NCBI GenBank assembly: GCA_036273715.1
Contig: DASUHB010000011.1
Span: 1-64,000, forward strand
DNA: 64,000 bases
Source of the DNA: Gemmatimonadaceae bacterium
GTDB lineage: Bacteria > Gemmatimonadota > Gemmatimonadetes > Gemmatimonadales > Gemmatimonadaceae
Direction of reading: 5' to 3'
This document shows, one piece after another, positions 27,048-60,873 of this stretch (its first letter is position 1; each line of letters starts with the position of its first letter). Position numbers and translations under genes: made by a program. The notes beneath the pieces are model-generated. The model was not told the origin of the DNA and searched no databases. It saw nothing but the letters and a program-made list of their open reading frames with translations.

Positions 27048-30000
27048 TCAGCGCTTCCCTTCTTCCGCGCCTAACCGGGCGAGCCGCTCCCGCGCCTGTG
27101 CCACCCGCGGCTGCAGCGCGGGATCGGCGTTCGCCCACAAGGCAATGAACCGCTGATCGTGCGCCGCCGCCCGCGCCGCATCGCCGCGCGCCTCGTAGAG
27201 CTCGCCTAACCGTTCGTGCGCCAGCGCCAACGCCAGCGGATCGGTCTCCACCAGCCGATTATAGTAGGGCGTCGCGATGAACGCTTCGTACTGCGCAATG
27301 GCCGAGTCCGACTGCCCAGCGGCATCGAACGCACGTGCGAGCTCGAGCGGCAAGCACGGCGCGCACTCCGTGGCCGGGCGATTGTCGTATGCCGTGTCGC
27401 CCCGCCGAAACTCGGCGAGCGCCCGATCGGCATGGCGCTCGGCCAGCGCGATTTCGCCTAACGTAGTGTGCAGCGCCGCGCTCTGTACCCGCAGCACCGC
27501 CGTGTCGGTCACCGCCGACCGATACGCCGCGATGATCGCTTCCGCCCGATCCGGCTTCCCGATGCGCGCCCACGCCGTGGCCACCGCGAAATAGGGCCGG
27601 TCGACCGGCGCCATCGCGCCGAACGGATAACGCGCGAGCGCCGCCGTTAGGCGCGCCGCCGGGCCTGCATTCGTGTTGCGGAACCACGTCGACGCCGTGA
27701 TCAGCGTGGCCGAATCGACCAGCGCGACCGGCGCGGCGCCGCCGGCCTGGGCGTACTCCTGCTCGGCGCGCGCGAGCTGGCCCTGGACGAGCGAGCGGCG
27801 GGCGCCGTACGCGAGACCGAACGACCGCGCCACATCGTTGCTCGTTCGCGCCAATGAATCGGCCAGGCGACGCGTAGCCGCCAGATCGCCGCGCGCGTAT
27901 GCGATGAGCGGAGATTGCACCTCGAGGATCGGACTGCCAGGTTGCCGGCGATGCCCGATGGCATACATTGCCGCGGCCGAGTCAGGGCTTCCGCGATCGA
28001 GCTCCAGCTCCATCACGTTGACCGCCCCGATCGTCATGCCAGAGTCTATTTGCAACTCGCGGACATCGAGCGACTCGGCGCGGGCATAGAGCCGCATGCT
28101 GCGGAGCACTTCACCCATGTTGCCCACTGTCGGAGCGACACGCGCGTCGGGCAGCCGGAGCTGTTGATTGTATGCGTCGAGGGCGCGCACGCGGTCACGG
28201 TGCGATGACACATCATAGTACGTCGCCTCAATGCTCAGGCGCTCGGGGTCCGTTAGGCGGAGCCTGAGCCGGTACGCATGATCCAGCGCCGAATCGACGG
28301 ACGCTTGCGGTGCGCCCATGTTGAGCAGGTCGATCGCCAGGTCGCCCCATGCCTGTGCAAAATTGGAGTCGACGGCCACCGCTTGCCGGGTCGGCCCCTC
28401 GGATTGCTGGACGTCCCCTGCCATGTTGGCGCTGCGGGTGGCGGCGCTGAACAAGCGCAGCGCTTCGAGGGACGAGGTCGTCTCACGCTCCAAGGGCGGC
28501 GTCGCCTGCACTTCGCGCAACGATTCGCCGATCTTTTCTCGGAGCGCGCGCGCGAGCTTGTCGGTGGCATCGATGAGCCCGCGCGGTCCGTCCGCGGTTT
28601 CCCGGAACGACGCGAGCTCGACGCCCGAGTCCGCGGTCACCAGGCGCAGCGTCAGGATGTACCCGCCGGGCACGCCGGTCACGTTGCCATCCACGATGGC
28701 CTGCACGCCCTCGCGTTGCGCCACCTCGCGCGCCACCGGCAGGTCGACGCGCGTCGTGGCCGGCCGGCCCATCAATCGGAGCGTCGAAGCGACCAGCGCC
28801 GGCGCCATCAGCGAAATGACCTTCGACGGCCCGAGCCCCGCCCGCACGGCATCGCTCACCACCGGGCCTAACGACGAGTCGGTATTGGCCGTGGCGAAGT
28901 CCGTGATCAGCACCGGCGCCCGGGCCGAGAACCTGCCGGCCGCCAGCAGCGAGCCCGCCGGCCCGATGCCTAACGCGCGCAGCAGCATGAAGCCGCCTAC
29001 CGGCACCACGAACACGGCCACGGCCCACACGCCGCCCAGCATCGTTTTGCGCCACGACACGTGCGGGCTCGCCTTGATCGCCAGCGCGGCCATCGTGCCG
29101 TGCGTCGGCAGGCTGGGCGTCCCGCCCGGCGTGAAACTCGGCGACTGGATCACCGTCCGGCGCAACACGCGCTGCGTGTACGCGGTGAACAGAATCACCG
29201 GCAGGCCTAACGCCATGACAATGAGCGCGCCCGGGAACACCCACCCCGGCAGCCCGATGCCGACGATCGCCGCTTGCGCCAGCACCGCCACGGCGATGAA
29301 CGCCACCGCGTACACCCCCAACGCCTTCCAGAACATGCGCGGTCCGCCTAACAGAACGGCCGGCATCGCCGCCCGCCCCGGATCGCTGGTCGACAACGCG
29401 TCGAGCGAGGCGAGAATCTCCGACGCCGACTGCGGACGCGCCGCCGCGTCCTTCTCGAGGCACCGCATCACGAGACCCGCGAGCGCCGGCAGCGTGTCGG
29501 GACGCAGCTCCTGCACGGCACGCGGCGCCTCGGCCATGTGCGCGGCCATGAGCCGCTGGGGCGTGCGGTTCGCGAACGGCGGTTGTCCGGCGAGCATCTC
29601 GTACGCCATGCAGCCGAACGAGTACAGATCGGCGCGGTGATCCACCGCGGGATCGCCGGCCGCCTGCTCGGGCGAGGTTTAGGCCGGCGTCCCGATCGCG
29701 GTGCCCAGTTGCGTGAGCGTGGCCGATTCCCCGTCGGTGCGCGCAGCGGAGATGGCTTTGGCGATGCCGAAGTCCGTGACCACCGCGGTGCCGCCCGAGA
29801 GCAGCACGTTGTCAGGCTTGATGTCGCGGTGCACGATGCCGCGATCGTGCGCGTAGGCGAGCGCGCGCGTCACGTCGCGGAGAATGCTCACCGTTTCGCC
29901 GGGCGAGAGCGGGCCGCGTTCGCGGAGCCGTGCGCGGAGACTTTCTCCCTCGACGAACGGCATCGTGAAGTACAGGACGCCCTTCGTGTCACCGGCGTTC

Positions 30001-35901: not shown

Positions 35902-36387
35902 CGTCGTTAGGCGCGCCGGACTCGGCCAGCGCTTGACAAATTGTGCTTGCAGTACGCCTCGTCATCGACGAGGCCGCTTGCTCCGCGCGCGACGGCGTTC
36001 CGTTGCCGCAATCGCGTATGCTTGGCTCGACACTCGCGCCACCGAAGCAAGCCGCCCGGCTTTCGACCGCGATACGGACGGGTCGTCACGCCGATCATGC
36101 AACGACACCCGGTGACTCTTCAAGCCCTTTATGTGTCAATCCGTTTATGTTCCCCCGTCGAGCCGAAGGTGCCTGTCGCCGTGTAGGCGCGCGGAGTCCG
36201 AGGCAGTGCGATGCCGTGCGTCGCTTGTCGGCGATTTCTCCCGTGGCCAGCGCGTTAGGCAGATGCCCTGCGCGTCATCTGGACGGGGAGGCTGATGCAG
36301 TCATGGTCACGGAGGTCGTTAGGGATGAGTCTACGACATCGGTCACACGCCAATAGCGCGCCCGTGGCGCCGCTTTCCATACGGAGA
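35902..36387. other. 486-base stretch without a gene
   Basis: It contains 7-mer copies at 35907 and 36255 and a related CGTTAGG at 36322. A TTGACA at 35934 could be a -35 element, but I see no good -10 at the right distance. Overlapping short frames on both strands have no family resemblance. Confidence 0.45.
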
Positions 36388-37506
36388 ATGAGTTCCCGCC
36401 CGATCACACTCGATGACCTCCGGCGTTTTGCCATCGGCCGGAGCCTGTTTGCGCCGACGACGCTCGAGCGCGCCCTCACTCGCTTTGGGTACGTGCAGGC
36501 CGACCCGATTCGGGCACCCGCCCGCGCGCAGGATCTGATCCTCCGCCACCGCGTCACCGGCTACCGCACAGGCGATCTCGAACGGCTCTATCCCACCCTC
36601 GGCGTCGAGGAAGACTTCTTCCTCGCCTATGGTTTCGTGACCAGGTCCATCGAGTCGCTCATGCACCCGCGCTCGATTCGTGGTGTGCCTGTCACTCCCG
36701 GCGTGCCATGGTCCCGTGCCCGGCGAGCGCAAGCGGAGCGGCTGCTCGAGTTCGTCCGCGAGCGCGGGTGCGTCCATCCGCGGGAAGTGGCCGCGCACTT
36801 TTCGCCGCGTTCCGTTAGGAACTACTGGGGCGGGTCGTCCAACGCCACGACCGCCTTGCTCGCCGGCATGCACTACCGCGGCATGCTGCGCATCCAGCGC
36901 CGCGACGCGGGCATTCGCGTGTATGCGCCGCACGAGCATGGGGAAGAACCCGTGGCTGCGGGAGCGATTCGCGAGCGCGTGGACGCGCTGGCGCGAGCGG
37001 CGGTCGCGATCTATGCGCCGCTCACGACCAAAGGCCTAACGCAACTGGTGCGCCGGCTCCGGTATGCCGTCCCGCAGTGGCGCAACCAGTTGACGGGCGC
37101 CCTCGAACGCGCAACGCACCAGCTCGCGCACACGCGCGTGGACGGTGTCGAGTGGTACTGGCCGCCGGACGAGCATCCGGACCACCAGCCGGTGGCGGAC
37201 ACGGTGCGCGTGCTCGCGCCCTTCGATCCTGTGGTGTGGGACCGCGACCGGTTCGAGCTGTTATGGGGTTGGGCATACCGTTTCGAGGCCTACGTGCCGG
37301 CGCCCGAGCGGAAATTAGGCTACTATGCGTTGCCGCTGCAGTGGCGCGACCGGCTGATCGGCTGGGGCAATGTGTCGGTGCCTAACGGCATCCTCGAGTC
37401 GCAGATTCGCTTTGTGGGGGCGCGCGCGCCGCGCGACGCGGCATTCGCGCGGGAGCTCGACGCCGAGCTCGACCGCATGCGTGCGTTTCTCGGTGTCGCT
37501 GGATGA
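36388..37506 (+). CDS. YcaQ-like winged-helix protein (HTH_42)
   Basis: A 372-residue protein from ATG 36388 (GGAGA immediately before). It carries LDDLRRFAIGRSLFAPTTL, FGYVQADPIRAPARAQDLI and EEDFFLAYGFVTRSIESLMH near the start, and VRVLAPFDPVVWDRDRFELLWGWAYRFE with YALPLQWRDRLIGWGNVS near the end. These are signatures of the YcaQ/AlkX-like family, whose studied members are DNA glycosylases that unhook interstrand crosslinks. The FDPVVW catalytic-loop region resembles the QxD/FDP motif of the family. It is a probable DNA-repair enzyme. The longer frame to 36295 is not supported. Confidence 0.85.
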   Translation: MSSRPITLDDLRRFAIGRSLFAPTTLERALTRFGYVQADPIRAPARAQDLILRHRVTGYRTGDLERLYPTLGVEEDFFLAYGFVTRSIESLMHPRSIRGVPVTPGVPWSRARRAQAERLLEFVRERGCVHPREVAAHFSPRSVRNYWGGSSNATTALLAGMHYRGMLRIQRRDAGIRVYAPHEHGEEPVAAGAIRERVDALARAAVAIYAPLTTKGLTQLVRRLRYAVPQWRNQLTGALERATHQLAHTRVDGVEWYWPPDEHPDHQPVADTVRVLAPFDPVVWDRDRFELLWGWAYRFEAYVPAPERKLGYYALPLQWRDRLIGWGNVSVPNGILESQIRFVGARAPRDAAFARELDAELDRMRAFLGVAG

Positions 37507-37569: not shown

Positions 37570-37631
37570 TTTTTCTTGTTGCCCTGTCCGTCGTGTCCGT
37601 GCTTTGTCCGCGTCTTCATGAGCGTAGATGC
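37570..37631 (-). repeat. Single arm of an interspersed palindromic repeat
   Basis: Bases 37593-37631 differ at 2 of 39 positions from the right arm of the palindrome at 59215-59253 (both end TGAGCGTAGATGC). The similarity continues leftwards (TTTTTCTTGTTGCCCTGTCC) into what is the loop at 59 kb. Only one arm is present here. It lies between the YcaQ-like and ATPase genes. Confidence 0.75.
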
Positions 37632-59120: not shown

Positions 59121-59253
59121 GCATCTACGCTCATGAGGACGCGGACAAGGCACGGACACGACGGACAGAGCAACAACAAAAAAGACTCTTGGTTATTGTC
59201 CTGTCGTGTCACTTGTGTCCGTGCCGTGTCCGCGTCTTCATGAGCGTAGATGC
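59121..59253. repeat. Palindromic interspersed repeat, 39-bp arms
   Basis: The left arm 59121-59159 (starts GCATCTACGCTCATGAGG) and right arm 59215-59253 (ends TGAGCGTAGATGC) are inverted copies with 37 of 39 positions matching. The 55-base loop is itself partly complementary (GACGGACAG against CCTGTCGTGTC). A single arm plus loop recurs at 37570-37631. The structure could fold as a long hairpin in DNA or RNA. Confidence 0.85.

Positions 59254-59277: not shown

Positions 59278-60873
<1,596 letters not shown>

Follow-up and report, generated by a model that had tools for sequence, protein, structure and literature searches.

The window, meaning the whole stretch of 64,000 nucleotides analysed here, comes from a Gemmatimonadaceae bacterium (GenBank assembly GCA_036273715.1, contig DASUHB010000011.1, positions 1 to 64,000), and a long palindrome with ends GCATCTACGCTCATG... 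occupies positions 59121-59253. A left arm of 39 bp (59121-59159, plus strand) and a right arm of 39 bp (59215-59253, minus strand), which differ by 2 mismatches, enclose a loop of 55 bases (59160-59214) that is partly paired in the predicted fold. This geometry, proposed in the initial annotation, was read directly from the sequence, and the proposed rank as the largest palindrome of the window agreed with a survey of inverted repeats (arms of at least 20 nt, spacing up to 400 nt), in which it was the longest of 29 (25 of the 29 listed); the repeat finder drew its arms as 47 nt, 89% complementary and 39 nt apart. Folded alone, the minus strand reached -93.6 kcal/mol, compared with -42.0 ± 3.8 kcal/mol in 200 shuffles (z = -13.6). 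A half copy, with a single arm and some of the loop, was found on the minus strand at 37570-37631, with 94% identity to bases 7-68 of the query (62 bases). Both copies are intergenic and lie beside 3' gene ends, as had been annotated. A gene for methylmalonyl-CoA mutase (59278-60873, minus strand; PF01642, 5.3e-217) has its stop codon 24 bp from the palindrome, and one for an AlkZ-like DNA glycosylase (36295-37506, plus strand; PF06224, 6.8e-38) has its own 63 bp before the half copy, which at its far end runs 4 bases into the next gene, predicted to start at 37628.

The initial annotation would have regarded its reading as refuted had these been the only two copies in the genome and its relatives. 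Results showed that the genome containing the window (G000; 4.34 Mb, 81 contigs, 98.7% complete) holds copies at 44 places at least, and that further copies are present in a sister genome (G100), which is about 94-97% identical to it over aligned regions. BLAST with a 146-bp copy returned at least 89 matches on both strands (best 40 of 78 candidates scored), which merged at gaps of up to 20 bp into those 44 or more places. A pattern search gave 47 matches and none for the reversed control, raising the count to 49 places, and a covariance model built from 24 copies (best 150 of 2599 candidates scored) raised it to 56, or to 50 across 24 contigs when arms up to 340 bp apart were joined. Two places on contig C44 and one at C73:32863, added by the covariance model, are distant relatives with other arms. 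The matched stretches are mostly 50-230 bp long (longest 432 bp), so the 44-56 places are short, dispersed and without a transposase gene, as expected of miniature inverted-repeat transposable elements (MITEs). A simple gene finder based on codon usage placed 40 of 46 examined copies clear of any predicted gene, against a coding fraction of 0.85 in the window; the neighbouring genes are in mixed orientation, with many copies at 3' gene ends and 7 of the 46 between divergent genes.

Matches were found only within the genus, among 179 genomes of the family and six of the genus. At E <= 1e-5 (best four candidates at most scored per genome), BLAST across the family was positive for G000, G100 and G099, the last with a single weak match. 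The covariance model returned 80 matches in G000 (both strands), 21 in G100 and 10 in the congener G097, and none at E <= 0.001 in G096, G098 or G099. Searched against all GTDB contigs, a set that may not cover the window's own records, a 19-base arm pattern hit nine contigs, all from Gemmatimonadetes bacterium isolate clean1656 (G100).

Several unusual arrangements were observed among the copies. At L074 (G000 C50:48983-49186) and L075 (G000 C67:38142-38476), two palindromes or halves stand tail to tail with a similar spacer of about 75 bp. The 432-bp form at L071 (G000 C18:37683-38114) is nested: between its core arms lies a further hairpin that has a GCTCATGATTGAAAGAC stretch of its own. 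Long hairpins of another kind, with GGCGGACA words and other ends, were detected by the covariance model at L161 (G000 C44), L160 (G000 C73), and L167 and L168 (G100). Short tandem repeats CCTTGTCCCG / CCTTGTCCGC adjoin a copy in the right flank of L022 (G000 C64, about 2330-2400).

Alignment of the copies showed a core common to all, and many copies are also alike beyond it. In these composite copies the core lies within an element of 300-345 bp bounded by terminal inverted repeats GGTTCTTCNGGAATTTCCGGGAA, which were found at both ends in L060, C31 and L005. A 17-base stretch of the terminal repeat (up to 2 mismatches) matched G000 at 14 sites, each beside an element copy, and the control gave 0. 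The composite copy L060 of the sister genome (305 nt folded) forms one end-to-end hairpin (-179 versus -101 kcal/mol, z = -13.9) and C31 in G000 folds largely as one hairpin (z = -10.0); in L005 and some other composite copies the outer arms are unlike.

L060 provided an empty site. Its two flanks match G000 at 95% and 96%, and 302 bp are absent there; the element is also missing at this locus in G097 and G099. The junction in G100 reads CACACAAAAAAAA | GGTTCTTCC ... GAAGAACC | CAAAAAAAAAGAGCCCGGCCTTCGCCGGGCTC, and its G000 counterpart reads CACACAAAAAAAGAGCCCGGCCTTCGCCGGGCTC. The left flank is CAAAAAAAA, the right flank CAAAAAAAAAGAGCCCGGCC... and the empty site CAAAAAAAGAGCCCGGCC..., so that the element stands between CAAAAAAAA repeats in the A-tract (i.e. 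the U-tract) of an intrinsic terminator. The target duplication measures 8 or 9 bp within the A-tract, with one base of slippage possible. At C31, CGAAAAAA was read by eye on either side, next to a terminator hairpin. A duplication with an empty site was thus obtained at one locus and a duplication by eye at another; the initial annotation had suggested aligning the flanks for such duplications, and at the window copies neither a terminal repeat nor a duplication was seen. Seven contigs of G100 were placed on G000 (L062 and L063 were not placed), and on the six besides L060 (L057, L058, L059, L061, L064 and L065) the element occupies the same locus in both genomes, with a rearrangement at the element in L064. 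It follows that most of the shared copies predate the divergence of the two genomes.

The composite ends resemble those of ISL3-type insertion sequences (ISs). Among 395 genomes of the phylum, seven matched the end pattern and no control did; five of the seven belong to other genera. Two such ends enclose 2.6 kb in G153, where the right one stands at the 3' terminus of an ORF with a PF01610 match, and in G118 a PF01610 match adjoins the end pattern. The pattern occurs in G007 and G013 with no ISL3 match beside it, and the match in G373 looks like chance. PF01610 was detected in 25 of 179 family genomes. We examined 22 of 30 returned ISL3 loci: seven gave an end pair under our rule (ends beginning GGNTCNTC) and 15 did not; the pair of L123 is weak, and L127 and L147 represent a single element. 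When the first 30 bases were compared ungapped with the MITE end (L123 omitted), both ends of three ISs from the same bacterial family scored as follows: 26 and 22 identities in G111, 17 and 25 in G044, and 22 and 21 in G140, the best end of the last being barely above the 21 of 30 reached by the best chance 30-mer anywhere in the window. The terminal repeats of these ISs are thus alike to those of the MITE, their best ends reaching 26/30, 25/30 and 22/30, respectively; those of L127, L147 and L125 are unlike it (14/13, 14/13 and 11/11 of 30). The ISs have AT-rich 8-bp flanking repeats, perfect in G111 and with 1 mismatch in G140 and 2 in G044; the 8-bp duplications of L127 and L147 are perfect too. 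The G111 element, which encodes a 428-aa transposase (PF01610, 6e-67), sits with a perfect 8-bp ATTTTTTC duplication in a T-tract after a GC-rich hairpin (by eye), so that it also shares the terminator T-tract as a target. Unlike these ISs, the element encodes no transposase, and the homology between them is restricted to the terminal 35 bp or so. An ISL3-type MITE is the best reading of the composite copies.

Two other routes had been considered. A mutator-type ORF (our own reading) just inside one of the matching G153 ends had suggested an IS256-type partner; PF00872 matches occur in four of six genus genomes, a matching end was found at none of five loci scanned (of six), and this candidate was dropped for ISL3. 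Terminator targeting in the manner of group IIC introns, suggested by the T-tracts, was dropped because the ends are ISL3-type inverted repeats.

A run of six A or of six T (A6/T6) lies within 14 nt outside 8 of 25 element ends (up to 5 mismatches, from G000 and G100 loci), compared with 28 of 9344 intergenic 14-mers of the window. The binomial probability of 7e-15 is indicative only, because two of the eight ends belong to one copy. The other 17 ends have no such run nearby, and five of them have a run of five.

The genome carries about 50 dispersed copies, composite copies have terminal repeats, one locus has an empty site, and ISL3 ends occur in related genera. We consider it probable that the palindrome forms the core of a non-autonomous mobile element that is present in many copies and whose composite copies are moved by an ISL3-type transposase in trans, the window copy being core-only. 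The transposase would recognise the composite ends in trans, the ends on a matching intact ISL3 partner presumably reading GGTTCTTCNGGAATTTCC, and the composite copies would enter AT-rich targets some 8 bp long, in many cases an intrinsic terminator's U-tract, which the target duplication may leave whole. If insertion into terminator U-tracts is general, such an IS would spare its host harm and add hairpins at transcript ends. Against this model stand the single clean empty site and the genus itself, in which no intact ISL3 transposase was found: PF01610 is present in one of six genomes, as a C-terminal remnant in G000. The 35-bp limit of the homology, the six shared loci, the examined ISL3 loci that lack a matching end pair and the 17 element ends without an A6/T6 run also count against it. 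The initial annotation had left a choice between a non-autonomous mobile element and a structured RNA; the former is supported by the terminal repeats, the target duplication, the empty site and the autonomous relatives that bear these ends too.

At the remnant locus (L029, G000 C10:3599-4042), a decayed IS200-like Y1 transposase fragment is fused to the ISL3 transposase C-terminus, and this locus adjoins RHS-like ORFs (our own reading) on a contig of 5.9 kb.

For the window copies we claim solely membership of the same repeat family. No ISL3-type terminal repeat (up to 6 mismatches) lies close to them, the sole match in the window being at 28585. The palindrome at 59121-59253 is therefore immobile by the ISL3 route, since it is core-only and without those ends. 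It may descend from a composite copy by trimming, or belong to an older class of cores that was later nested in an ISL3-type MITE; we infer the greater age of the core from the core-only class described below. The window copy occupies the same place in G100 (99% over 146 bp) and so predates the G000/G100 split. G099 and G098 have the mutase gene, and no copy was found there by the covariance model. Their sequences begin to match at the 3' end of the mutase gene (or 31 bp within the gene); the window copy has no clean empty site because the flank on the other side of the element fails to match.

A compatible reading, which refines the ISL3 model for the window copy, takes the core as an independent mobile palindrome with ends of its own, about GGCTGGCATCTACGCTCATGA (by eye), moved by a putative other enzyme, with the ISL3 arms as a later host. 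Several G000 copies without ISL3 arms keep ends near GGCTGGCATCTACGCTCATG at lengths that vary from 77 to 432 bp, and several composite copies carry GGCTTGCATCTACG outside one arm, one base from the core-only end. In the congener G097 (75% complete), five places resemble these copies in their outermost bases and differ in their arms, and a search with up to 2 mismatches for the ISL3 end pattern gave 0 matches. Against it, none of the core-only copies yielded an empty site and no enzyme candidate was identified; nor was a target duplication visible by eye at core-only copies, because complementarity continues outwards in several of them. On balance we regard the independent palindrome as tenable, if somewhat doubtful. 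It is rather unlikely, in our estimate, that the core is a separate palindrome which spreads itself by a putative enzyme, one lineage having acquired an additional route when it became nested in an ISL3-type MITE; similarly speculative is the corollary that the outermost bases were kept and arms and loop rewritten between congeners, with terminator tails as harmless landing sites.

That selection maintains the hairpin as a structured RNA or as a terminator of transcription appears considerably less probable than either. Its great stability, the many copies at 3' gene ends and the retention of the window locus in G100 agree with such a role, and among 24 copies 96.5% of cells are paired, compared with 24-49% with slid partners. 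However, copies also lie between divergent genes, and presence differs between the sister genomes at L060. None of 33 pairs carries a change on both sides among the 24 copies, and shuffles reached the observed values in at least 426 of 500 cases. Pairing without such double changes is consistent with recent descent and does not speak for selection on the pairs; the RNA alternative raised in the initial annotation finds no support in covariation, and a search of Rfam at the gathering score gave no match in the window.

A REPIN-like element moved by a RAYT (Y1 transposase) is very improbable: the dispersed intergenic inverted pairs with CTAC/GTAG near their ends would suit it, but the single Y1_Tnp match in a 98.7% complete genome is decayed, covering 72 of 121 profile positions with an internal stop, and composite copies bear ISL3-type ends and a target duplication. 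The latter features are not known from REPINs. REP/REPIN sequences are likewise dispersed extragenic palindromes, and differ in that here no intact RAYT was found in G000 and the ends are of ISL3 type with a duplication. Of the REP or MITE likeness seen in the initial annotation, the MITE part held and the REP part did not, with no intact Y1 transposase in G000 and no Rfam match in the window at the gathering score.

The nearest described parallel found is QMITE2 of Coxiella burnetii, which has terminal repeats of 23-29 bp, a core of 113-145 bp, duplications of 7-9 bp and a very stable hairpin, and truncated copies of which, their ends lost, resemble REPs (PMC10969869). The likeness in design, stable hairpin and end-less, REP-like copies is one of description; QMITE2 belongs to another organism, whereas in the present family a congener also has the core without the ends, and the composites measure about 300-345 bp and have ISL3-type ends. 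SPRITE, RUP and BOX of Streptococcus pneumoniae, in another host, are also intergenic, clustered and mutually nested, and SPRITE contains terminator-like sequences (PMC10969869). No report of an ISL3 MITE in this phylum, or of ISL3 insertion in terminators, was found among titles and abstract beginnings in the open-licence PMC literature. For Gemmatimonadota, a little-studied phylum, these results describe a MITE family that has an empty site, ends assigned to a transposon family, and a landing rule open to testing.

A different motif is repeated in the same window. GCCTAAC/GTTAGGC is its most over-represented 7-mer among words with at least 25 occurrences, with 85 sites (45 + 40 by strand) versus 2.9 expected from trinucleotides. 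The sites, with core CGCCTAACG, are spread across the window at a median spacing of 573 bp. Nothing on this motif was found in the open-licence PMC literature. Seven other sampled genomes showed no enrichment (0-2 each), and the motif is also enriched in the sampled loci of the congeners G097, G098 and G099 and, in another genus, of G013; it is possibly an uptake-like or maintenance motif.
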